Assembly: GCA_030295235.1 (NCBI GenBank)
Contig: AP026134.1
Span: forward strand, 868,001 to 932,000
DNA from: Fistulifera solaris
Taxonomy: Eukaryota; Bacillariophyta; Bacillariophyceae; Naviculales; Stauroneidaceae
Length of the DNA stretch: 64,000 nucleotides
Direction of reading: 5' to 3'
Part shown: piece by piece, positions 5,656-57,171 of the stretch
How the letters are laid out: each line of letters opens with the position of its first letter
How positions within the stretch are numbered: position 1 is the stretch's first letter
Translations under genes and position numbers: made by a program
Notes under the pieces: model-generated
Database searches by the model: none
What the model saw: only the letters and a program-made list of their open reading frames with translations
Told to the model about the DNA's origin: nothing

Positions 5656-6401
5656 CTGCATTTGGCTTAAAAGGAAGCTTTTCTTTAAAACCAAATAATC
5701 ACATTTATTCCGTTATCTTTTCTCTGAAGCGATTGAAAAGTTCTCGAAAGGAATAAAACTGCTGATTTCGTTTACTAATTTGCGAGACTAGCTAGGTGTA
5801 AGCCTTCAGCCATGAGTCTCTTTTGCTGAGTCCTTCGTCCTTCCAATACTACTTGTCCAATACTAGTCCCTTGTCCTACCCTCTACCAGCTACCAGTACA
5901 GTACCATACCGGTCGACTGACAAGAGCGACCTACACGTCGGCTTACAGTAGCCTACCTTGGTACGGGGTACCGTACCTGCATTTGGAATTTGGAGTTACA
6001 AGTATACTCGGACTTTTCCTAACCCTAACCCTCGGACGTTTCAAATACACTTCCCTTCTTTCCACTTTCTGCCGTATTTTCGCGTTACCTGGTACTGACC
6101 GCACCTCCACCAACCTTCTGCGGGGGACAACAGGACAACAACTCACCGCACAATAAGAGAATTTGATTGAATGTGTCACAAGATTGAAAGGAACATTTGC
6201 TGTTTGTATCATCTTGTGCCTTCCTCCTCATGTTGTTTTTCACTTTTCACTAAGCTAGCTATAAAATTGTTTCGAAAATCGTTGAAGAAAGCAGCGGAAG
6301 CACAGCTATTTCATTGATTTTCCTAACCGTCGTCCGTCAGTAAGGTCTATGCCTCTTTTCTATTAGTAGTGATTGCAATAGAAATAATAAAGGCACGTAC
6401 C
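5656..6401. other. Intergenic spacer with GTACC-rich patch and telomere-like hexamers
   Basis: This 746-nt spacer separates two rightward genes. At 5885-5980 there are repeated GTACC/GGTAC words, and at 6018-6033 there are about two and a half CCCTAA units. The short leftward frame at 5943-6212 has an unconvincing composition. No gene is called. Confidence 0.5.
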
Positions 6402-8218
6402 ATGACTGCGTCAAATTCTGCGAGCAGTGGAGCAAGTCGTACCGTTGCGCGGCCGATAGCAAACCTCGGAAACACATGTTACATTTCAGCAGTTCTTCAA
6501 GCACTAGCTCACGCCCCAGAACTGTGTTTAGCGATGGATTGTGAATCGCACCGTTCACAATGCCCCGTTGCAGCAGGAAGACAAAGTCATTCCCCAGAGC
6601 CTTCTCCCGATTCAGGCGGATCTACACGAAAGTCACAAAGACGCAACAGTCCGGTTCAAATCGATAGTTTCTGCACTCTTTGCGAAATCGAAGATCATAT
6701 TCGACGAGTACACGACGGCACCGATGACAAGCCTGTGGCACCCGCCACGTTCGTGAACGGCTTCATTGAGCATGTCGCTCCTTGGTTTAAGTTAGGCGTA
6801 CAAGAGGATTCGCACGAGTTTTTGCGGCTTCTCATTGATGCAATGCAAAAGTCATGCAAGAGCGCCCGCATCAATGTAAAGGCCAGTTCGTTGCCTTACA
6901 ATGTGGGAGCAGACGAAGACATCACAAAGGATGTAGAGCTGGACCAAGAGTATCCGTTCGCTCTATTCCGCGGAACAGTAGAGTCAAGAGTTACATGTGA
7001 TTCGTGTGGTGCAACGAGTTCCACGAAGGACCCCATCGAAGACATTGGCCTCGAAGTCTCCTTGCCCAACGACATTGCCGCTTCTCGGAGCGCTAGTCGT
7101 GGGAGTCGAAATTCGTCTCCCATCCCACCAGCGCTCACGGATGTACAACAAGCGTTCAAGCGATTTGCGGGAGTCGAAGCGCTGGATTCAGGTTACAAGT
7201 GCGAAAAGTGCAGCAAGGTGGGACGAGCGACCAAGCAAACGCGCTTGGCAAGCATTCCCCCAATACTGACGTTGCAACTCAAGCGTTTCCGTTACGGGAG
7301 CGAAAATCCGAGTTTGCCAGCCCGTCGATCGGGGAGATCCTCGGACCCTGTCCAAGTGACGGCTGGCAAGTCCGGAAGCGCCAAAATTGAAGGTCACATC
7401 AAGTTTGAGTTGTTTTTTGATCTACATCCGTACTTGACGACGGAACTTCAGGAAAAGCACAAGAACATGTTTTGCAGACTCTTTGCAGTTATTGTTCATG
7501 CAGGAAAGAATTCTCATTCGGGCCATTACATTGCGTACGTCCGCAACATTGCCATGAACGAATGGTGGAAGATGGATGACGCACGTGTTACGGCAGCTTC
7601 GGAGAGCGAAGTCCTTCAAGCGGAAGCATACATACTTTTCTACCGTATTGTGCAACATCCAGTGTCAGTCCGTCTCGAACAGTTATATCAGAAGAACCAG
7701 AAACAAGAAGGCGAAGACCAACCGACGATTGACCCGATGGTCGTAAGCGAAAATGTTTCAATTCAAGACATGAAGCAAGAGGAGACAAGTAGGAAAGCTT
7801 CAAGGAAGCGATTGCTAACAATCGACGCAGGTATTGAGTGGGCCCGATCCAAGACAAACATTCCCATTCATTTAATCCGAAAAGTACAAGACCTTGCCTC
7901 AGAAGAAATAACGTGGACTCCCGAGTTTGTAAAGAAGATTACTTCATCCGGGAAAGACGTCCCCAAACGCGCGAGCGGTGAGTCTCAAACAGCAACATCT
8001 TGCAGCTTTGCACCACTCCGCGCTTTCTTATGCTTTCCGTTTGTCTTTTTAAATCCTCAGACGAGGATGTTGTCGGCGGTACCAAGAAGCTCCGATCAAA
8101 GATAATGAATGCTCTTTTCAAACACACAAAGCTGACTTTTGGGTCAGCGAAGCTAGCCAAAATATTGAAAAAGTCGTCGCCGTCGTGGAGGCGGAAGACG
8201 CCGACTTACTCTAATTAA
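6402..8218 (+). CDS. Ubiquitin carboxyl-terminal hydrolase (USP, peptidase C19)
   Basis: This enzyme removes ubiquitin from substrates. The first ATG is 6402. The Cys box IANLGNTCYISAVLQAL begins near residue 19, with nucleophile Cys26. Zinc-binding CxxC pairs are visible (CDSC, CEKC), as is the QEDSHEFLRLLIDAM block. The His box NSHSGHYIAYV has His375, followed by EWWKMDDARV with the downstream Asp. The layout resembles the USP36/42 and plant UBP15-19 groups. Intron 7978-8060 (83 nt, GTGAGT...CCTCAG) joins KRAS to DEDVVGGTKK. The last exon adds a basic Lys/Ser/Arg tail ending KTPTYSN, possibly a nuclear or nucleolar signal. Total length is 577 residues, with no frame problem. If the intron were retained the protein would end about 40 codons later in an unrelated tail. 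Confidence 0.9.
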
Positions 8219-8922: not shown

Positions 8923-9228
8923 CTCTTTCTCCTCTAGCTTACTGATCCACAACTGTCTCCTTGAACTGTTCAATAAATCTTAACGTTTGAATATGAGTGT
9001 CCACGTCCATAATCCACTCATATCCGCTTACCACATAGCATTGATCTTCGCACTTTTCCGCCCCCCGACCGCCAAGATATCAGCACGACTCATAACCTAA
9101 TGTCCAGACGTCGTCCCGTCTCCCGTCTGCCGTCTCCCATTCATTGTAAGGCAAGGATTCATTCTGTTCCATCGATAATATGAACAAGAGTCGCATTTGA
9201 AACTTGTTCATTGTGGAAGATAGAAGAA

Positions 9229-10866
9229 ATGCCGACATCATTCAATATTCCTTTCGTTACGGCAAACCCCAACTCGTGGGGTCCACCGTCGGAGATTGAT
9301 GAAGCGAACACGGACGCTGGCTCGGTGGCGAAATACGCTGCTTTGCCCTATTCTCCGTTCGGACGCAACGATCGTCTCGGCCGCGTCGCCGACTTTACCT
9401 CGGGCAACAAATTCACGGCCGGGCGTTACAATCGTCGCACGCAGCAAGCTTCGGAAGAGGATGAGGAACAAGCCTTTCAATTGGTCGATACTACCAAAGC
9501 ACAGCAATCGCACAAACGATTTGTCAACCCCGCCAGCAAACGACGCATGCACAGTCAGCGCTTGCGTCAAATCAATGCTCGTCGTCAACAGGCTACGGGT
9601 CATCAGTTGGATAAAATGACACGTGGTGCCCCCGCGGGCCGTTTCGGAGGCCGGGGGGCCGGACGGGGTGGGCGCGGTGCCGGCCGCGGCGCAGGAACCT
9701 TCAACAACCGCAATGTCGATCGACAGCCATCGGTGGCAGTGCAGAGTGACTGGGTCAAGGTCGAGGAGTTGGACTTGCAAAAGATCAACAAACACTTGGT
9801 CATTCCTTCCTCAATTCCGACTCCAGAAGATGTCTTGTGGTGCGGTTTCGTCGATACATACAACGATAGTTACGACAAGGTATCGGCGAGACAGCCTATT
9901 AACTTGAAACGAATGGAAAACAAGCTGTTCTATCCTGTTACAACAACTGATGACCCTGTACTCGAGAAATTTGCCATCGATGAGGCGGCACAAGTCTTTG
10001 TGACGGACACGATCATGTCTCATCTCATGTGCTCTACGCGATCGGTCTATCCATGGGACATTGTAGTGCAGAAGCTTCCCAATGGGACACTCTTTCTCGA
10101 CAAGCGCGACAACTCCCAGTTCGATTACCTTACTGTCCACGAAACTGCCTACGCCACGCCGTCACCGTCGGAAGACGAAGGCATTAATTCGTCCGGTCGC
10201 TTGTCGTTGGAAAGCACAATGGTGTGCCAGAACTTTAGTCAGCAGATTCTCAAGAAATCAGGTCGCAAACAAATGGATCTTCCCAACCCATTCTACGACG
10301 AAGAGGACTCCGAAGAGGTGATGGAGCCGGCCAGTGTGGCGTACCGCTACCGAAAGTGGCAGTTGGACGATGGCACCCGCGTCATGTGCCGTACCGAATT
10401 GCATGGTTTGGTCAAGAATACGCAATACATGACCGCCTTCGCTTTGAACGAGTACCCGGCAGGTGGCTGGCGTGACAAGATTGATTCGCAGCGTGGTGCT
10501 GTTTTGGCCACGGAGCTCAAGAACAATTCCTTCAAGCTGGCCAAGTGGACGACACAGTCACTCTTGGCCGGTGCCGATCAAATGAAGATTGGGTTTGTGG
10601 CTCGCGCAGCACCGAAGAATCCGTACGAACACCAAATTTTGGCGACGCAATTCTACCGGCCGAAGGACTTTGCTCAGCAAATCACCCTGAATGAAGGAAA
10701 CATGTGGGCCATGTTCCGCTTGTTTATCAACATGTTCCAGAAGCTTGAAACAGGCAAATATGTGCTAATGCGCGATCCCAATAAGCCCATCCTTCATCTT
10801 TACAGAGTCCCACCCAACACGTTTGAAGATGACGACGAGGATGAAGAAGAGGAGAAGGAAGAATAA
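9229..10866 (+). CDS. EIF3D: Eukaryotic translation initiation factor 3 subunit D
   Basis: eIF3d belongs to the eIF3 complex and contacts mRNA and cap at the 40S entry side. The first ATG is 9229 ([20 protein letters not shown]), matching the conserved eIF3d N-terminus with its NPNSWGP block and the following [18 protein letters not shown] Gly/Arg-rich RGG-like stretch occurs around 9640-9705. The conserved middle follows ([15 protein letters not shown], then [17 protein letters not shown]), and later [20 protein letters not shown] and the [12 protein letters not shown] helix. The C-terminus is acidic, ending [12 protein letters not shown], as in other eIF3d. It is a single exon of 545 residues without a break. 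A long complementary-strand frame here is a shadow of this gene. Confidence 0.95.
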
Positions 10867-14057: not shown

Positions 14058-17000
14058 ATGTCTCATTCGTTCTCGACAAACTGGCGAATGAAACATCCCT
14101 CGCTTCCGAAAACATTACTTGATGACGAATCAGACGAGCAATTACAACACGTGAACAATCTGTTTAAAAGGGATCTTTGATAGGCGCTGCTATTTGGGTG
14201 TTTTTGCTCGTTCTAGTTCTCCGCTACTCGCCTGCTGCGAGCTATGAAGAACCATGGGGATTAGAACAAACAACACATCTTATTGTCTACTTGGTTCTTT
14301 GCGCATCAAACGGATCAAGGATCGTACCATTATGTCTACGAGAGCTGAATTTTAGCTTTATGAAAAGTGGATTTCTCGCAAGCGCCCTTTCTGTGCAAGC
14401 GATTGCTATCGTTTCAAATTTCATCATGTGGTACTTTCCGAGTCCAGTGTTGATTGATGAATACAGTGGTTTGCGGTTTCACATGGTGCGCTGGGCAGAG
14501 TGGACCGCCTTAGCATTTATCATGACGTTCTTGACGTGTAATCTGGACGCAGCTGTCCAGCAAGGAGAGGGGAAAGTTAATTTCGTGTATCCCACAATGC
14601 TAGCACTGAGTACGTTTTGCGGGATGCTTTTTCCACTTTGTCGTGATGGTATTTCATGGTGGATTGTTATGACATTCGCGTGGCTCTGTTTCAATGCGAT
14701 CTTCGTCCTCGTGTATCGACGAAGGAAATCGTACTCTTTCCACAAGAAGACTCTCGAAGACTCAACAGCTTCATTACCACACGAAGCAACCCTCGACCTT
14801 TCTAGATCTGCATATAATCTGGCGCTAGCTTGCGCGTCAACGTGGACGATGCTCTCCATTGTTTTTACGTTCATGTGCTTTACAAACAAGCTTGCTCCGA
14901 CCGACAGCTGGTTGAATCATCCTGCGAATCCAGTTGTTTTCACCGCATGCTTTGAGGTCGCATCGAAAGTCATTTACCTTGGCTGTGTTTTTGATACATA
15001 CGACAAGGTATTTGACGAGAAAGCTATCGCACTTCGCCGTTTAGAAGAAATGAGAAACTTCATGTGTGCGGTTTGGGCGTCGTCGTCAGATGCCATTGTT
15101 TACGTGCTGGATGGATACGATCACATAAGCGCCAGGATCAGCCCTGCGTTTCTTAAGTTGATTGGTGTTGCCAGCGGAAGAGCTTGTTCGCTTCTGGGAC
15201 GGGGGGATGTTTCGCTGATTATCGATATATCACCCAGCAAGGGTTCTTTTACCGTCTTCGCCATGGATCTGACAAAAGAAGTAACTCGGGAAGACGTTGC
15301 GAATGCACTTAATGCGAAGAAAATCTTCTTTGAGCAAAAGAAGACCTGACAGTTGACGAAGCAAACATTGTGGCAGTTGCCGAACTGATTTTGAATGAGA
15401 CCAAGATACCTGGTCAGACCATGAAAGTCTTTCATAAAATCGAAAATGACCTAAAAGTGAGCATCCCGTGCGAGGCGACAGTGGCGGATCTTGAAGGGAA
15501 CAGCAGGGTGGTAGTTCTTCGTGATATCTCTGATAGGCTGCAGCGCTTTGAAGCCGAAAAGCGATTGATTCAAGAAGTGACATCGCGAAAGAAAGACACC
15601 GAAGCGAATAACTTCACGCGGCATGAAGTAAAGAATGGCATCTTGGCCTCCATAGGCATTCTGGATCATATCAAAGAGCTGATGGCCCATCGGGCGAGTG
15701 TACCGAAGTGTGCAATTGCACCATCTGTGGAAGGTTCTAGCCAAAAAGATCAAGTAATCGATGCACTCACCGAGCTCGACAGCACCCTCCGTGACATACT
15801 AGACACAATTCATGATGAAGCAATGGCAAAAGAAATCATTTACGGTGAATACGCCCCCAGAAAAGATATTTTAAGAGTCCGTGACGTTTTGGATTCTATA
15901 CGACAATGTGGAGCTTCAAACAGGTTTCCTTTGCACATCAAGCCAGACTTTCCTCGCGTGTTCCTCGACCGTCAGCTTCTTCGGTACATCTACCGCAACG
16001 CCTTATCCAATGCATGCAGATATGGACAACACAACGGGACGGTGGAAAGTTTTGTGTACTACGACCGAGGCACCCGTGTTTTTACCTTGAAAGTAACGAA
16101 CCTACCCGGGGAAGGTCATGATGAGCTTTTGGAGTTGGATGATGACCAAGTACGCAGCATATTCGAACCCGGCGTGCGACTTGCTCAGAACCATCACCCT
16201 TCTGCCAAGAATGCACAGGCTATCAACAAAGAATCATCGGGCAATGGAGCATGGATCATGCAGAAATGCGCCGAATGTCTTGGCGGATCGTGCAGTATGC
16301 AATTCGACGAAAACGGTGCAACATTCTCCTTCGTATGCACAATCGATGCCGAGGAGCGCCCGTCGCTGACATTGGACACCACGTTCTGTCTTCCAGCAGG
16401 CACATGGGGTATTTCCATTGATGACTCAAGAATCCAACGGAAGCTTATGGATCGATTTCTTGCTCAAGCAGGAATTGAGCAGTCGCGAAGGGTTGTCCTG
16501 GGTGCCAATGCCAACGAAGTTTATAGCTTCGTCGACACTGTAATCAAGCTTGTGAGCGAAAACCCGGATGACAAGTTTCTACTGATCGCCGACGAGAATC
16601 TAGACATCGAGTTTGATGGCCAGAGGAACGCTACTGTTTCCGGTTCCCTATGTGTTGAACAAATTATAGGGAAGCTCGACACGGATTCGGAGAAGCGATT
16701 GCTTGCGCTTATTCGGAGCGCTAACGACTCACTGTCGGATCTGAACCTGTACAGAAATCGGTCTCATGGTGTTCTAATGAAGGAACCAATCAAAAGTGGT
16801 GGTGTTCTCGGCATAATCAAACCGTTCTGGAACGACCGCTTTTCATTAAAAGAAGTCACAGAGGCCCCGGAGTCTGCTACTGATCAAGGAATCGACGCAT
16901 TTCAACTACAGGGACCCTCTGAAGAGGATCTTCGCGAATCTTTCCGGGTGATCAGGGCACTGTCGTCGGTTGAAAATAACGAGAAGCTGCGGCGAAGGTG

Positions 17001-17190
17001 GCACCCTCTCCGTGATCGTTTACACGCTTTGAAAGGGGATCTAATGAGCATGATGGCAAAAGATAAACTTGCTGATGTGATGAAACTCATTGATGAATTC
17101 CTCGCAAGCTCTGTATTTCCTGAGAGCTTTTTGAGCGATTGGGAAGCAGTCGAGCAGATTGTGGAATACGAGCTCTCCAAAAGTCCCTGA
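14058..17190 (+). CDS. Hybrid histidine kinase with microbial-rhodopsin-like membrane domain, REC and HPt
   Basis: ATG at 14058; two one-base shifts (T run near 14170, A run near 15333) join three frames into 1,044 residues. One N-terminal membrane helix is followed by seven more. In the third of the seven, VRWAEW (residues 144-149) matches the Arg-Tyr-x-Asp/Glu-Trp of type I rhodopsins. The fifth begins SWWIV (bacteriorhodopsin WW), the sixth has Trp263, and the last has FEVASKVIY with Lys304 four residues after Glu300, as in the retinal-lysine helix. A PAS-like segment and coiled coil follow. Then come the H-box FTRHEVKNG (His523), N-box YRNALSNACRYG (Asn647), G-box SGNGAWIMQK, a receiver (DD 788-789, Asp845 or 849, Lys908) and an HPt (LHALKGD, His989). 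This is the set for a membrane photo- or chemosensory phosphorelay. Light sensing is inferred; the kinase relay is clear. Confidence 0.85.
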
Positions 17191-17428
17191 GACCTTTATT
17201 ATAAGATAATGCAGCATAAATTAGACAACTTTTTGTAAACAAACGCCAATTGTTTCAGCCGACTTTCTCTCTTATCTTCTCACACCATTTGCGCCCAGGG
17301 GTAGGAACAACAATTTTTTTATATAGACCGTCCGTCGAGGTCATGTGGTCCGGTTTGTGACTTGGTGATGGGAATGGTCGAGGTGCAGATGCAAATTATC
17401 ATAATTGCCAAGGCAGTGCCAACAATCA

Positions 17429-17701
17429 ATGCGGGTAATCAGAGCACTTTCGTTGATTGATAGTGATGAAAAAATGAGACGGGGATGGCATATCCGGAAT
17501 CGCCTCCATGCCTTGAAAGCAGACCTTATGAGCATGATTGCAAAAGACAAATTTGTGGATGTTTTGAAATATATTGACAACTTCCCCCTGCATCCCACTT
17601 TTCTAGAAAGCTTTTTGCATGAATGGGAATTCATGGAGCAGCTTGTAGCGCGAACGCTCACAGAAAACTTACAGGTACTTCATAGAGCGAGCTTCGCATA
17701 A
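17429..17701 (+). pseudogene. Orphan HPt-domain copy downstream of the hybrid kinase
   Basis: ATG at 17429 gives MRVIRALSLIDSDEKMRRGW, then NRLHALKADLMSMIAKDKF and a C-terminal helical part to 17701. It aligns along its whole length with the last ~85 residues of the kinase just upstream (RVIRALSSVENNEKLRRRW, RLHALKGDLMSMMAKDKL). The phospho-acceptor His of HxLK is kept, but the next Gly is Ala. No kinase or receiver part precedes it within the 240-nt gap. The simplest reading is the 3' remnant of a tandemly duplicated kinase. It could instead be a stand-alone 90-residue HPt shuttle protein, since the frame is intact. Confidence 0.7.
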
Positions 17702-17889
17702 GTATACGCTGTAGACAAACCCGCCATTCGTACCACCCTTTCTCGGGATTGCCGCTTAGATTGCTTCAAAGTTATAGTTACTACTTGTTCAGACGCAGAA
17801 ACAAAAACGATGAGTAACTGTTTAGCTTGATTGATTTTTCGTTGCTGCGATAATTTACCGCGTGATTGCTGTTTTTAAGGCGTGCCCTT

Positions 17890-19571
17890 TCATTGCTCGG
17901 ATTCTTCTTCTTGGTTGCCTCTTATTGTTTTGCTGTCCCAGTCTTTTCCTGATTCAAGGGATTGTAAAGCGCGGTCAAGTACTGGAGATGGAAACTTAGT
18001 GACGGCAAGGGGAAATCCATAAATTTGACCCTTTCGAAAAAGAATGAAAGACGGAACCGCATCAACACCGAGATAGCGACCAAGTTCTTTTCCTATCTCT
18101 CCGGTCGCATCTGCTTGACAGAAAACGATATCCCTTTTTCCTTTCTGCAGTCGTGAAAGCCGCTGATATTGAGGCCGCAGATACCTGCATGTGCGACAAA
18201 ATGGGGCTGATAAGAACACACATCCAGTCAGTTCTCCATCAACAATATAATCTTGAAGACCCCTTACACCTTGAAACTGCAAAATGTTGTGGGGATTTTG
18301 TTCTTGGCGCTCTTTGGCTGCAGCGGCAGCTTCACTAACAGGCTTCTTACTGCGTGGCGTTTTGTCTCTAATGGGTGAATTCTTCTGTTCCCGAAGCATG
18401 TTCAGGAGCGGGCTAGTGTTTCTCACGACCATTAACCCCTCCTCCTCTTCATCTTCTGTTTCTTCCATCCAAAGGGAAAATGATGTGGTCGGAAAGCCAA
18501 ACCGCGCATTCGATTCAATATCTCGAGGCCACGTGGAGCTTTCCCAATAGTCCCCCATCGTCCATCCTCGAACTGTGGCTGTAAAATCATCTTGTTGAAC
18601 TGTGCTGGTTGGTGTTTTGTTGGCTGGCCACGTGAAACCGGCCTCGAAAAGGGACTGAATGGTTGTCCCTAATTGTTTCGGGGCTGGTGGCTGAGGGAGT
18701 TGCGCACCGGCCAGTTTTTCTACGTGCGCCTTGGCCCGACCTGGACCTGATAGCATACCCGCTTCGCTAAATAGTTGCTGCTGACGCGTAACAGTCGATA
18801 CGTATTGTTGGCAGTTGTGTCGTGACTTGAGCAAGTCTATCACTGTTTCCTCGGAAAAGACGCCATCGACGACGGTGATTCGTCGCCCAGTGTATCCAGC
18901 AAGGCGTCGAACTTACCCAATTTAGCAGCAAATCCCATCTCATTCTCGGATGGAGATGTAACGCTTATATTTCTTTCGCTAAATTTGAGTGATTTCGTCG
19001 TGATAACATGCACTTGACATTTCAAAGCAGCCAGCGCCCGAGCTGCCATTTGCGCATAATCATTGCTTCCAATTATTGCGACAGTAATTGACTCTGTAGA
19101 TATCATACTGCTTTGCAAACTTCCTCCGATATCGGCAATAGTAGGCAGAAGACAATGTACCGCAGCCCACGCAAACTGCATCGTTTGCGCGGCGAGCTGA
19201 TCCGAAACTTTGGGAGGAATGCGTGCCACCGAGGATGGGTACAATTGCCTTGACGCGTTATTGCGGAGACCTACAACGCGATCACCTTCTTCAGTAGTAC
19301 CTGTAGCGAAGCATAACGCCGCAGCGAAGGACTGTGTGTTGATTAATCCTTCTTCCTTCAAATGGCGTTCCATTGAACGCCATTCTGAGCCGTCGACGAT
19401 AGCCCAGTATTCCTTATAGTTTTTGTCCGTTAGAAGAACAGGAACATCAGCGTCTGTAGACGAAGACAACTGTCTCGAAGCTTTACTTGTTGACTGAGAC
19501 GACGGTGAAAGAGAAAACGCCAGAAGACAAGATGGTAGTAACGCAAACACAACCAGTGCGCTTGATCTCAT
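17890..19571 (-). CDS. Plastid-targeted protein: Rossmann-like domain fused to thioredoxin fold (CRTC)
   Basis: ATG at 19571 begins a signal peptide (MRSSALVVFALLPSCLLA) followed by FSLSP, a diatom plastid-type junction. The N-terminal half contains SITVAIIGSNDYAQMAARAL, resembling the nucleotide-binding turn of quinone-oxidoreductase-like proteins. One missing A near 18883-18886 separates this from the second frame; restoring it reads GDEITVVDGVFSEETVIDLL. A low-complexity, acidic linker follows. The C-terminal thioredoxin fold has CVFLSAPFCRTCRYLRPQY, so the CxxC is CRTC not CGPC, and later the cis-Pro region VDAVPSFILFRKGQ. Total length is 560 residues. A redox role in the plastid is plausible. 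The partner of the Rossmann-like half is unknown. Confidence 0.7.
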
Positions 19572-25943: not shown

Positions 25944-28341
25944 CTAAGCCATGTAGTTGTAAACACGGTGCTCGTTTTCCGCGCGCTCTAAATACTCACG
26001 ATCGATCAAGCTCTCGATCCGCTTCTTGATAAACTGCGGCGAAGGATTGAAACGCACTTGTAGTTGTTTCGTCACTTCTGCAACAAGCCCATTGTGGTCA
26101 AGCCGACGTCTTGCCTTCATGATCCTGACAATCGCAGCTTCGACCAAATGTCGACGATCCTCTTCAACTGCGACAGGAACAGCACCACTCGCGCCCTCGA
26201 TCGTATTCCCTGCAGTAGCACCACTGCTTATTTCGGTGCCATCAACTCCTGCTTGGTTTTCCTGCAACGACGATTCCTTGACCAGTGGAATGCGAATACG
26301 TTTCAGCTTGCTAGTATAGTCAGAATTGAAAGCAAAGCTATCCATGTCGGATGTTATGCCGCGTCCCTTGCTCAACTTCTTCAAGATGCGATTCTTGGGA
26401 GTGGTCAAAGAAATCAAATGACGTCGAAGCTCGGAATCTGGTATCTGCGTTTGCATTCGAATTTGCCCCAACGTAAGCGTATCTAGATCGTTGAACAACA
26501 GTAAGATACACATCTGATACGTTGAGACACAAAGTTCATGATGGCGATTTCCACCAAAGGTTGCTCGAATTTCGGCGGCACCAGCTGATGTTTGCCAAGA
26601 GAGCTTTCGTCCAGTATGCTCGTTAAGGTAAAACGAGGCGAAATGATTGATTGAATTCTGAATGGAAAGAGGCAATGTGCAAGGAGGGACATTTTGTGAC
26701 GGCCAGTAACCAGTAGTTAGAACGTCAACCTCAATCTCCACTCGACTTGCTCTGTCGTCGCCACCTTGATCGCGCCGCGCGAACGCCTTATACTTATCTC
26801 GTGTTTCACGTGAAATTCGCATGTCATTGAACATGCCTTCCAGCTTTGTTGTGAACTGATATCCGCACTCCGCTTTGAGTAAACTAACCATGCTTCGTTC
26901 CGCATCGTCGCTCACGCTGCGTCCACCGAGAAGGCGCTTCGCCAAATGCTGCTTATAAAAACTCTCGAACACATCTTTGTCGCTCAAATAACGAAAGATT
27001 GTAATAGCTTTCTCCAGTTCTGCCGTGACTTGCTCGTCAGTAGCTCCACGTAAACTTACTCGTAGCAACTCATCGACGTAAATTGCCAAACAGGACGCCG
27101 CTCGGGCGTCAGCATTCAAAAAGCTCTCAAACGATTCGCGAAGACGCTTCTGGGCCTTCTTTTCATTACGGAACGAATGTTCGACAATATTCATGTACTT
27201 AATGCGCATTGCTAGCACTTTGCGACAGAACATAGGCGGATCGGCTTGGCCAGTCTCTTGGTCCTTCAAAAGTTGCTTTCCGTCTGCTTTGATGCGATCT
27301 GCCAATGCGTCACGTAGGTAGTCAACAGAAGAAGGCACTCGCACAAACAAATCATACATTTCTAGCATTTCTTCCTGCTTCATGTCATCCCTCAGTAATG
27401 CGGCAAAACCGGTCAACTCCATCTCTACCAGTGTTTTCGCGTGCCTCTCAATCCACTCGGTGTGCAATATGGTTATCATTGGTCCCTCTGTGGTCATGGG
27501 TAGTTGTAAAGAATGAGCTCGCTCCTTCTCTTCTTCCAAACGCAATGTCGCCTTCCGCACGTAATCGGACGCAGTAGCAGATGACAAATATTGCAAGGAC
27601 TCCGTTTGATAATATTCCTGTGTTGTCGCAAGAAACAAGCTTTCAAAGTCATTGTGATACACAGCCGCTGTATGCGACGATGAATTTCCGATTTCCAGCA
27701 ACATGTTGAGAATACTTTTGAACATGTTTCGATCGTCTGTCAAGAAACCAGCGCGTTCTCGCTCAATGGCTTGCAACAGTAACTGCACAACTCTGTTTTT
27801 GACAGCAGGATGTTCCCATACAGTTATACGGAACAAATGTAAGCCCAGTTCATAGACAGGTCGTCGCTTGGACTGTGGAATGTAGATGCGATCCATGTAC
27901 ATGAGAATGTCTCGTATCATCGTCATGGTGATGACATGGTCCTGCCACACGGTCGACGTCGCGGCCAGCAACGCTTCGTCGGTCGTTTCTTCCGCAAGTA
28001 AATGCACTGTCTTGGATAAATGCTGCGTAATCTTTTCTGAGACTCCGTCGTACAACAAATCCCCATGCTTGTGCAGAACTAAATTGTACGAGCTCCGGTA
28101 GAGTTCTTCAAAACTCAATTGACTCGCATTGCGGTTGTAGAATTTCATCCAATGCCGCCGACAAAGTCTCCCACGTCCGATTCGCATCTTGACGATCCAT
28201 CGGTTGATGAGTACGAAATGGCTGCATTGTTTGATACGGAATGAAGTAGAACGTTGAGGTAACGCAGCATAGACAGCAAATTTCAATTGAGATGACTAGT
28301 TCGCTTACCTTGATATTGAAACGACGCTTCGAGTCCGCCAT
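25944..28341 (-). CDS. CUL3: Cullin-3-like ubiquitin ligase scaffold
   Basis: CUL3 binds BTB-domain adaptors at its N-terminus and the RING protein RBX1 at its C-terminus. Exon 1 (28341-28309) encodes MADSKRRFNIK; intron 28222-28308 (87 nt) joins it to PFRTHQPMDRQDANRTWETL. One extra base near 28150-28156 shifts the frame; without it the text reads IYNRNASQLSFEELYRSSYN, the standard CUL3 opening. The cullin homology region shows SDKDVFESFYKQHLAKRLL and later GYWPSQNVPPCTLP. The neddylation site lies in AAIVRIMKARRRLDHNGLV (Lys in MKAR), and the winged-helix end is IKKRIESLIDREYLER to YNYMA. The corrected length of about 769 residues equals typical CUL3. Confidence 0.93.
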
Positions 28342-52803: not shown

Positions 52804-55800
52804 ATGTCACAGCTAACTTTTGAAAGGCTACAAGAGGTTCTGCTTCGAAAAAAGCAGCAGGAAGAGGAGCGATGTTCCGATCAAGAATCAGAAGGAAACC
52901 TTCCCCTTGATTTTGATTCTCTCTGGAAAATCCCAGCGTTGTTTCAACAAACGACCCACGTTGATGCCACGCTTTATAAATGCTCCGTGTCAACTCCTCT
53001 GTGGACGAATCTTCCCTGGAAATCCATTCCATTACCAGTGCAACAACAGTTACCGGATCTGAAACCTGAATCGGAAGATACCGTCGTTTCGGTGCCCAGC
53101 CACTATTTGGCGAACAGCGAAAATGCGAATATCACTGCGAACTTGACAAGTAAACTGACAGAATATACTCGTGGTCTAGCTGGAAGAGCGCGACCCTTCC
53201 TTCCCGGTGGGATGGATTCTGACAGTGCGAACAAATCACGTTCCGTCGATTCTAACACAGAACATGATGCTTTGCAAAAGTCACTTCGTGTTCTTCACCA
53301 ATCGACCAAGGAGAGCTGGAAAGAAGGAATTCTCCTCACTGCACCACGCAATGTTGATTTCGAAGTGGGATTGACATGGAACGATATCTATGGAAATGAC
53401 GAAGACAGTGACAACGAAGTTGGTGACGAGAAGAAACAAATTACTCCAGAGACTTCCGCTGAGAAAAAGGACTTCGCTGCAATTCATAAACAATCAGTAC
53501 AGGCCCCGACACTCTTCTCGACTGGATTTTTGGACGGAATTGCCGATGATGACTCTTTGTTTAACGACAGCACTAGCAGTGACGAGGATGACGAAGAGGA
53601 TGACGAGAAAGACCAAGAAAACGACATATTGTCAACAGAGACGAAGAATCACAAAGCGGACGATTCTTACAAACCGTTGCTACCAGTTCTTAAAGACCAA
53701 GGTGACGAAAACACAATCCGAGCGACTTCAACCAAAAATCGAACAAAACATTGATGACCTTTTACTGGAATTGGCCGACGAACCAATCCCTCCGCATAAT
53801 AAACGAAAAGAGATCAATCCGCTAGAGCTGGCGGAAAGGCAGGCTGCTTTACGCACCAATACAACGCGAAAGTCTTGGGCTACCACTGACTTGTTAAATA
53901 TTCCAGACTGGGATACATATCTGCCGCAGCCGGCTCTAAAATATCCATTTGTTTTGGACACTTTTCAACAGCAAGCGATTGCCCGCTTGGAACGAAATGA
54001 GGCGGTTTTTGTGGCTGCTCATACCAGTGCGGGAAAAACTGTTGTTGCGGAATATGCTGTAGCCCTTGCCATGCAGCGTGCAACAAGGTGTGTGTATACT
54101 TCGCCCATCAAGGCGTTGAGTAATCAGAAATTTCGAGATTTTGCACAAAAGTTCGGTGCGGAACGGGTGGGTTTGGTGACAGGTGATCTGCAAGTAAACG
54201 GTACGAACAATAATGATGCCTTGCGTTTTTGCAGCGTGCTGCCATCGTCTAACCTTTTTTACGCGACAGTTGACGATTCGACTGTGCTGATAATGACCAC
54301 GGAGATATTGCGGAGTATGCTCTACCGAGGGGCAGACCTCATTCGCGACATTGAATTTGTGGTCTTTGATGAGGTCCACTATGTTAATGACAGTGAGCGT
54401 GGGGTTGTTTGGGAAGAAGTGATAATCATGTTACCTGCTCAAGTAAATCTGATTTTTTTGAGTGCAACAACACCCAATACCTTTGAATTCAGTGATTGGA
54501 TTGGTCGCACCAAAAGACGTATGGTTCATGTTGTCAAGACCGACTATCGTCCCGTTCCGTTGTCGCACTTCCTGTGGGCTGGAAACAAATTACATTTAAT
54601 TTTGCACGGAAAAGGTGGTTTCCTCGATGGTGGATACTCGGACGCAGCAAACGCTCTGCAGCCCAAGAAATTGAAAGCAGATGGCAAGGTAAAACCACAA
54701 CCACCCAAAACAGGATCCAATCTTTTGGCTTGGCAAGCCCAAGGAACAAAGCAGCATTGGATATCGTTGATTCGATTTCTTGATCGAGATTTATTAACTC
54801 CGACCGTCATATTTTCGTTCTCGAAAAGAAATGCGAAGAAATTGCTGATATGTTGCGATCGTTAGATTTAAATACTGAAGCTGAACGGGGCTCTGTCCAG
54901 GGATTTACGTTGCAAGCTATTGCACGACTTAGCAGCGCCGACGCAAAGCTTCCGCAAGTGCTTGCGATTAGCGAGATGGCTACAAGAGGAATTGGTGTCC
55001 ATCATGGAGGACTTCTGCCAATTTTGAAAGAGTACGTATCATCTCGGAAAACAGACATGTTAACGAAACAATGCCGGTTCTCGCTCATGTTTTTTTCATT
55101 GTTGGTATCCTACTTTCTCGTCACAGGTTGGTGGAGATATTGTTTTCAAGAAATCTTATTAAAGTTCTGCTGGCGACAGAAACGTTTGCTATGGGTGTAA
55201 ACATGCCAGCCAAGAGTGTGGTTTTTAACAGGTAAGGATTAAATGGGAAAAGAATGTGCTTATGGTTGAACCTCCAGTTTTCTCAATTCTACTCTCGGGT
55301 TTAAAAGCGTACGGAAACACGATGGCACGCAATTTCGTCAGCTAGAGCCCGGTGAATACACGCAAATGGCAGGACGAGCTGGTCGACGTGGACTGGACGA
55401 GATCGGCACCGTTATTATCTGTTGCTTTGGTGAGACGCCCCCTCCACAACCCATGCTTCGCTCCATGCTGACAGGAAAATCGACCTTGCTCAAAAGCCAA
55501 TTTCGATTGACCTACAACATGATTCTGAATTTGCTTCGTGTAGAAGATATGAGTGTAGAATCGATGATCAAACGTTCTTTTTCCGAATTTGCCACACAAC
55601 GCGCGTTAACAACGAAAGAATATCCGCAGCTCTTGGAGCGAGGTACTAAAGCACTAGCCAAGCTTGAATCACAGCTGAGTCAAGAGTTGCGACTGGGCGC
55701 CGAGGATCTTGAAGATTACTTTTCGGTGTGTCGAACTGTCTTGAGTACCAGCAAGGAAGTTTTAACTTTTCTGCTTGGGTCAGACCCTGCCTCATTTGAT

Positions 55801-57171
55801 GAATTATTGCAACCCGGTCGTGTCATTCTTGTGTCAGCTGCTCGTCAATATGATGTCGTGCGTGCACCGGCTGTTGTATTGAAATTACCGACGAAAGCAA
55901 ATGCGTCATCGCTTACTGGTCCGAAAACGAACTCGACATGCCTCGTTTGCTTGATTCTTTTACCTTCCAGTTACGTTGAACCACATAATAAGGATGAGGG
56001 CGGGAAGATAGCCCCTGCTCATCTTGGTTATATTGGTTCTCACAGACAACGCAACTATTCGATTCAAGAAATCGATCTAGGACAAATTCTGGCTATATCT
56101 ACGACCAAATCAAAAGTTGATGCTAAGTTATTATACAAAGAAGACTCATCGTCGGTCTCGCGCCCACTTCCAAATGATACTTTCTTTTCCTCAATGACAC
56201 GTGACGACCCTTTTTCGGGAATGAAAGCCTTGGGAAAGAATACTGGTGGAGTTGTCAAAGTAACAAAGGAAGATGAAATGATGGATCAGGTGATAAATTA
56301 TCTACTGGCAGCAGAAGATGCGGAGTCAGGTCCATCGGGTGTCCCTACCATCGACATGCAATCATTCGTTAAACGAGGAACTGACGTGATTTATTTTCGA
56401 GAGGCCTGCGATCGGATTCGTGATTTGCATGCAATGATGCGGACATTCCAGTCTCACCGACATCCTACTGTTGAAAAGTGGTACAAAGAAATTGAGCGCC
56501 GCGAGACACTCAGGGAGAGAGTTCAACTACTAGAGCACACCTTGTCAAACGAGTCGCTATCTCTCTTTCCCGATTTTATGCAACGCAAAGCAGTTCTACG
56601 CGAGCTTGGTTATATCAATGAAAACGAGACGGTGACGGTAAAAGGGCGCGTCGCTTGCGAAGTGAACACTTGTGAAGAACTTATTGTTTCGGAAATGATT
56701 TTTGACGGTGTATTGAATAACATGGCACCGGAAGAAATTGTTGCTTGTCTTAGTGCCTTGATATTTCAAGAAAAGAAAGACGAAGATTACAGTGACAATA
56801 CGACATTACCCGCCCGTTTGATAGAATGCTGCGAGAAAATGAAAGAAATCGCTGTACAACTAGGTCAAGTCCAAAAGGACAATGGACTTGCCATTGATCC
56901 GGCAGATTATTGCGACCGAGTTTTGAAATTTGGTTTGGTGCACGTCGTTTACGAATGGGCCTGCGGTGTTTCCTTTGCCAGTATCTGCATGCTGACGGAA
57001 GTGCAAGAAGGCAGCATTGTTCGAGCGATGACCCGACTGGATGAATTGTGCCGTGAAGTGCGCAATTGTGCGCGTGTAATTGGCAACCCTACACTGTACC
57101 GTAAAATGGAAGCAGCGAGTGAAACGATCAAGCGTGATATTGTCTTCGCTTCTAGTTTATACGTAAGCTAA
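52804..57171 (+). CDS. SKI2: SKI2-like DExH RNA helicase (exosome cofactor)
   Basis: SKI2 feeds mRNA to the cytoplasmic exosome within the SKI complex. ATG at 52804; three exons with introns 55032-55126 and 55232-55307. The N-terminal region is acidic and includes the SKI2 signature around GLTWNDIYG. Helicase motifs: [20 protein letters not shown] (I), [16 protein letters not shown] (Ia), [23 protein letters not shown] (DEVH), LSATTPN (III), [31 protein letters not shown] and [20 protein letters not shown] (VI). An insertion (arch/KOW-like) follows, then a helical C-terminal DSHCT domain with [16 protein letters not shown]. Two shifts (extra A near 53710, missing A near 54833) cancel. Length is 1,398 residues. 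MTR4 is less likely given the N-terminus. Confidence 0.93.

Follow-up and report, generated by a model that had tools for sequence, protein, structure and literature searches.

A candidate eight-helix rhodopsin histidine kinase with a predicted His-Asp-His relay in the diatom Fistulifera solaris

Enzyme rhodopsins are listed for fungi, green algae and choanoflagellates in the available text of a 2025 review (PMC12558739). Two groups of described proteins come closest to the gene considered here, which lies at positions 14058-17190 of a 64,000-nucleotide stretch of Fistulifera solaris DNA (contig AP026134.1, positions 868,001 to 932,000), hereafter the window. The phosphodiesterase Rh-PDE of Salpingoeca rosetta (structures 7cj3 and 7d7q) has eight membrane helices including TM0 (residues 50-73) and a C-terminal effector; its counter-ion is the helix-G Asp, and its helix-C Glu is protonated (excerpts of PMC7644710). 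In the green algal histidine kinase rhodopsins (HKRs), namely Chlamydomonas Cop5/HKR1 and Cop6 and Rhod-HK, the rhodopsin kinase of Ostreococcus, an opsin and a histidine kinase share one chain (excerpts of PMC6284317 and PMC4343026). Cop5-7 carry a response regulator after the kinase and a predicted cyclase at the end (PMC6284317, in part), the 2c-Cyclops are described, in the passages available, as having eight helices, and HKR activity is said to be inhibited by light (PMC12558739, in part). A microbial rhodopsin, FcR1, is known from a diatom; it is a proton pump of the xanthorhodopsin family according to the accessible part of PMC10627834. We propose that the window gene probably codes for a protein that joins an eight-helix type-Ib microbial rhodopsin to a hybrid histidine kinase with a His-Asp-His relay, and which would work like an HKR and share the fold of Rh-PDE; the likeness is one of architecture and fold, descent being a separate matter.

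Both predicted models of the membrane domain contain eight helices, TM0 and A to G, and thus show the seven-helix fold of type-1 (microbial) rhodopsins together with the eighth helix of type-Ib enzyme rhodopsins. The best fold match is the eight-helix enzyme rhodopsin Rh-PDE (7cj3, 7d7q), whose 7cj3 structure is aligned from residue 54 in one model and from residue 47 in the other, so that TM0 is matched as well; an extra N-terminal helix had already been noted in a preliminary description made from the window sequence. When the full-length model of P0004, a related metagenome protein of 1033 residues, was compared by VIA-align, all matches listed were rhodopsins, the kinase part being picked up by Foldseek. 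With eight helices and a cytosolic kinase, it follows that the N-terminus of the modelled protein would be cytosolic. The superposition suggested in the same description came out clearly in favour of a rhodopsin, the helix-G Lys coinciding with the Lys that carries retinal in Rh-PDE (7cj3). Judged by the ends of the alignment ranges, this Lys corresponds to residue 296 of 7cj3 in both models and to residue 205 of SRII in six of eight rows, and Lys205 is the retinal Lys of SRII (PMC6798134, in part). Rh-PDE likewise carries an acid four positions ahead of its helix-G Lys, Asp as opposed to Glu here, and a helix-C RYAEW motif where the window gene has RWAEW, whereas identity in the structural alignments is just 11-13% and the effectors differ.

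All rhodopsin marks that had been pointed out, RWAEW, WW, the helix-F Trp and FEVASK with a Glu four residues before the Lys, are present in the sequence. We followed their conservation in 35 of 36 family proteins (alignment A7, in which the window gene is represented by P0007, the published F. solaris protein FisN_23Lh217), counting a residue only where a row covers the position, so that the number of rows differs between sites. Five residues are invariant in all 35: Lys and Glu of helix G, Arg of helix C, the first Trp of helix E and the Trp of helix F. Such conservation speaks against a chance occurrence of the marks. The second Trp of WW is found in no more than 14/35. The acidic counter-ion positions of helices C and G are occupied by Glu in 32/35 and 35/35 proteins, respectively. 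Since the helix-G Glu is kept more strongly than the helix-C Glu, the pattern fits a counter-ion arrangement like that of Rh-PDE, in which the helix-G acid would take this role. The helix-C Glu is replaced by Thr in P0033, Val in P0003 and Ala in P0014, proteins that keep the helix-G Glu and Lys and are candidates for a different absorption. Two distant F. solaris gene copies, on contigs C38 and C39, retain RWCEW and have Asp instead of Glu before the Lys (FDVLAK). The helix-F Tyr-Pro pair had been described as replaced, and this extends to the family: no Tyr-Pro occurs in any of the 35 proteins, the Tyr185 position being Leu in 34 and Ile in one, and the Pro186 position Ala (19), Val (10), Ser (4), Thr (1) or Gly (1), never Pro. 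Smaller alignments were used elsewhere. The full-length model was built on A3, with 18 of the 27 family proteins available at that point; A4 holds 19 of 28 rows and leaves out P0006, P0007, P0011-P0014, P0020, P0026 and P0027, of which P0014 is one of the members without the helix-C Glu. P0027, whose reading is lost midway through the membrane domain, was kept in A2 and left out of A4 and A7. In P0035 and P0036, repeated SSVGSDAPT-like motifs precede the membrane domain and the protein ends without an ATPase part; in P0035, Cys replaces the phospho-acceptor His.

The order of PAS-like, HisKA, HATPase, REC and HPt parts given in the preliminary description is borne out by conserved motifs and by fold matches of the P0004 model. 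In this model (pLDDT 74.8, pTM 0.42), the membrane domain is followed by PAS, DHp and CA domains, by a receiver of alpha/beta type into which a hairpin is inserted, and by a helix bundle at the C-terminus. Foldseek ranks histidine kinases with PAS or LOV domains highest, together with the hybrid kinase ShkA and phytochromes. The PAS-DHp-CA fold is shared with WalK (9a5d), the LOV kinases 8a6x and 4gcz and ShkA (6qrj), from which the protein differs in its membrane rhodopsin-fold input and in the HPt-like domain added at the end. The features of a hybrid histidine kinase are present, with the DHp His in 31/32 proteins, the N and G boxes of the ATPase in 24/24 and 23/23, and the receiver Asp in 22/22, alongside the receiver Asp-Asp pair (21/21), Ser (23/23) and Lys (22/22). 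Pfam HATPase_c matches the window gene with an E-value of 1.2e-5 and 26.2 bits, slightly below the cut-off of 26.4, and P0004 with 28.4 bits. The His-x-x-Lys-Gly motif of the HPt-like bundle is likewise conserved (His 21/22, Lys 21/22, Gly 22/22). As in green algal HKRs and 2c-Cyclops, opsin, histidine kinase and response regulator thus stand in one chain, whereas no Pfam cyclase family matches the window gene or P0004; the HPt that had been suggested in place of a cyclase is seen as an HPt-like bundle in the model, the comparison with Cop5-7 being drawn from their published description. An effector in one chain with the rhodopsin is found in P0004 and other long relatives, and in the window copy across two frame breaks. 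At the border of CA and REC in P0004, a Nup188_SH3-like match scores 21.3 bits, where the cut-off is 21.4.

If the protein works as Rh-PDE and the HKRs do, retinal bound to the helix-G Lys would absorb light and isomerise, and the resulting shift of the helix bundle would be passed through the helical linker to the PAS domain and on to the DHp/CA kinase. Phosphate would then move from the DHp His to the REC Asp and the HPt His, and from there to a separate response regulator. Retinal binding, control by light and its sign, the phosphotransfer steps and the downstream target are what we infer from these analogues. RPE65/carotenoid-oxygenase genes give 13 matches on eight contigs of the genome (C11, C12, C13, C14, C19, C20, C25 and C26), apparently as four pairs on neighbouring contig numbers. 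Such enzymes could supply retinal.

Several observations weigh against the proposed rhodopsin kinase. The Pfam Bac_rhodopsin search that had been put forward as a check gave no match at E<=10 for the window open reading frame or for 19 family members, and the curated cut-off of PF01036 is not reached although the fold is the same. Searched against PDB, the family profile retrieves two Rh-PDE sequences at non-significant E-values (0.39 and 0.57), and a comparison with six type-1 rhodopsins by hhalign gives a weak match (prob 1.1, P 0.049), although 199/200 decoys score lower; phmmer with the window open reading frame against PDB found only an unrelated antibody (E 1.3). Range-end Lys positions disagree in some rows: 7d7q is off by two and one, bacteriorhodopsin rows such as 1qhj, 3cod and 4hyx give 215, one off Lys216, and a deviation of two to four residues is seen in 1xio and in two of the eight SRII rows. 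Bacteriorhodopsin's helix-F Tyr-Pro and helix-C Thr-Thr-Pro are absent, and the carotenoid oxygenases may not be makers of retinal. In the signalling half, for which slices came from 11 of 35 rows, REC and HPt are supported by motifs and model without significant profile matches: Pfam Response_reg hits 2/9 members (best E 0.0087; alignment A8, nine of 11 receiver slices), and Pfam Hpt, run on five of 11 HPt slices, hits one of five (E 0.098). Against PDB, the receiver profile places proteasome subunits (E 0.02) level with or above CheY and SLN1 (0.024-0.14), none being significant. Taken over the whole model, the kinase matches reach only low TM-scores (TMq 0.13-0.19), because domain arrangements differ. 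Weak Pfam matches on the membrane domain (17 families across the 19 members) were taken as chance, among them CrtO (4/19 members, best E 0.0084) and TMEM107 (1/19, E 0.001).

The strong divergence, the missing profile match and the replacement of the helix-F Tyr and Pro positions in 35/35 proteins would also be seen in a receptor kinase of opsin fold that no longer senses light and reads another cue through its membrane bundle. An opsin without retinal would, however, be expected to lose its Lys, whereas here the Lys and, four positions earlier, the Glu are invariant in the 35 proteins (with Asp for Glu in the C38 and C39 copies), as are the helix-C Arg and the two Trp aligned to retinal-pocket positions, so that we regard this explanation as unlikely. 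Very improbable, in our view, is a rhodopsin that chiefly moves ions as a pump or channel and for which the kinase would be a side output. The fold is common to pumps and channels, and the helix-C Glu is also present in channelrhodopsin-2 (typed reference sequence), but the closest fold is an eight-helix enzyme rhodopsin, no Thr-Thr-Pro stretch stands behind the helix-C acid and a full kinase is attached. The proton donor of bacteriorhodopsin, Asp96, lies 11 residues after the helix-C acid; counted in the sequence, this residue is Leu. It is also improbable, slightly more so than a loss of light sensing, that the window copy is a pseudogene, which owing to two frame breaks would yield no full protein. 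The interval had been described as coding for one chain, which does not hold for the window copy itself: three open pieces in three different frames (14058-14180, 14168-15349 and 15334-17190) cover it, with breaks near 14168-14180 and at 15334-15349, a point against a working gene here. The open frame is broken in all five copies in the assembly (C14, which carries the window, two on C13, C38 and C39), and a second tandem copy is absent from the C14 chromosome. The single chain does hold in relatives, P0004 being open across both break positions and P0007 passing the second, its gene model lacking all that precedes MWYFPSP, close to where helix B ends. P0004 is 100% identical to C13 copy A over its residues 610-1033, yet copy A is broken in the assembly. 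Moreover, most gaps between copies are one base long (8/12, 9/14 and 9/14, flanks included), as in noisy long-read assemblies, and the ratio of non-synonymous to synonymous substitution rates (dN/dS) is 0.154 between the window gene and copy A (921 codon pairs), 0.141 between the window gene and copy B (830), 0.142 between A and B (727) and 0.149 between C38 and C39 (926), values inflated by some misframed ends. The gene copies are thus under purifying selection, and assembly noise is a likelier cause of the breaks than gene decay. An intron at 14168 in place of the first break was rejected, as copy A and P0004 read through without one.

Returning to the rhodopsin kinase, three protein searches, in which a capped set of candidates was scored, yielded at least 36 family proteins, and F. 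solaris itself contributes at least two. Relatives were not confirmed among viral contigs (55 pattern matches) or prokaryote genomes (143 pattern matches). Those F. solaris proteins listed in databases are named "hypothetical protein" or "Histidine kinase domain-containi...". A 2018 paper presents putative rhodopsins of type I, the first from a stramenopile by its account, and in the part accessible mentions no fused kinase; no diatom or stramenopile rhodopsin kinase appeared among the matches listed from titles and abstract starts of open-licence PubMed Central articles, preprints not included. As far as these searches go, the opsin-kinase combination is known in green algae, and a diatom case is not found in the literature. 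An ordinary xanthorhodopsin comparable to FcR1 was not found in the genome with a typed bacterial query (best E 0.32), a search run with no positive control. A scan of the genome for the Bac_rhodopsin family was likewise empty, but as its controls gave no signal either, it carries no weight. With somewhat less assurance than for the architecture, we favour the view that these proteins form an undescribed diatom family of eight-helix rhodopsin kinases, invisible to standard profiles, with a His-Asp-His relay in one protein. Their main counter-ion would be the helix-G Glu, and their helix F lacks the Tyr-Pro pair. Because of the last two properties the photochemistry may be unusual, for example that of a slow or bistable pigment, or of a UV-absorbing one in members without the helix-C Glu. 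If this is true, enzyme rhodopsins would extend to stramenopiles, and diatom two-component signalling would have a retinal-based input beside aureochromes, cryptochromes and phytochromes. The family could sit unannotated in other algal genomes, because its membrane domain is missed by profile searches. Anyone looking for a light-driven kinase that brings its own HPt would have a natural candidate here, and F. solaris can be genome-edited (PMC13276009, in part).

Table 1. Positions in the window of the rhodopsin kinase gene, its parts and neighbouring features
Feature	Position	Strand	Basis or remark
N-terminal cytosolic stretch (MSHSFSTNWRMKHPSLPKTLL...)	14058..14180	+	reaches frame break 1; N-terminus uninterrupted in C13 copy A and P0004
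TM0, extra N-terminal membrane helix	14168..14227	+	model helix 2-20; Rh-PDE aligned from residue 54
Rhodopsin core, helices A-G	14258..15013	+	beta-hairpin between B and C at 14441-14482
RWAEW motif	14489-14503	+	
Glu of RWAEW, helix C (bacteriorhodopsin Asp85 position)	14498..14500	+	32/35; register by HMMER, hhalign
First W of WW, helix E	14657-14659	+	
Helix-F Trp	14843-14845	+	
Glu of helix G (bacteriorhodopsin Asp212 / Rh-PDE Asp292 position)	14954..14956	+	35/35 family proteins
Lys of helix G, presumed retinal Schiff-base Lys	14966..14968	+	35/35 family proteins; structural-alignment range ends
Helical linker, rhodopsin core to PAS	15017..15082	+	model helix 284-305
PAS-like domain	15095..15540	+	model strands/helices; P0004 model matches PAS/LOV kinases; frame break 2 inside
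DHp (HisKA-like), RHEVKN	15541..15850	+	phospho-acceptor His 15622-15624; His 31/32; model; fold matches
HATPase (CA), N and G boxes	15880..16350	+	HATPase_c; N box 24/24, G box 23/23
Receiver (REC)	16402..16851	+	acceptor Asp 16591-16593; motifs; alpha/beta fold in P0004 model
C-terminal HPt-like helical bundle and stop	16921..17190	+	His 17023-17025; helix bundle in P0004 model
Remnant, HPt tail of second tandem copy	17405..17701	+	57% identical to P0004 tail; DNA matches C13 copy B end
Neighbour genes, as group	6327-8102, 9184-10863, 17890-18912 (-), 25944-28295 (-), 53375-54862, 55270-57168		

The allopolyploid Fistulifera solaris has 42 pairs of homoeologous chromosomes (PMC5935921, in part), and the assembly used here comprises 51.7 Mb in 61 contigs. 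Compared with FisN_23Lh217, the window gene is identical at 617/617 residues in the kinase part and 305/306 in the membrane part. The matching locus on C13 carries two tandem copies, A and B. Because window positions 17426-18000 match the end of copy B at the DNA level, the second tandem copy seems to have been lost from C14 by deletion. Positions 14348-14647, 14796-14944 and 16591-16740 are nearer to copy B and most of the remaining gene is nearer or about equal to copy A, a patchwise similarity that suggests gene conversion between the tandem copies. The C38 and C39 copies form a second, distant pair with the same architecture (L011 2564-5477 and L010 2357-5251, respectively); no HPt was seen in them, their P0004 matches ending at its residues 922-924 and open reading frames below 100 amino acids being unlisted. 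In a midpoint-rooted tree of 24 kinase parts (22 family proteins and these two copies), a branch of 2.39 changes per column separates the pair from the rest. The neighbours in the window are ordinary eukaryotic genes, coding for a ubiquitin hydrolase, eIF3 zeta, a thioredoxin-like protein, a cullin and an MTR4-type helicase, the last of which is split over two separate open frames.
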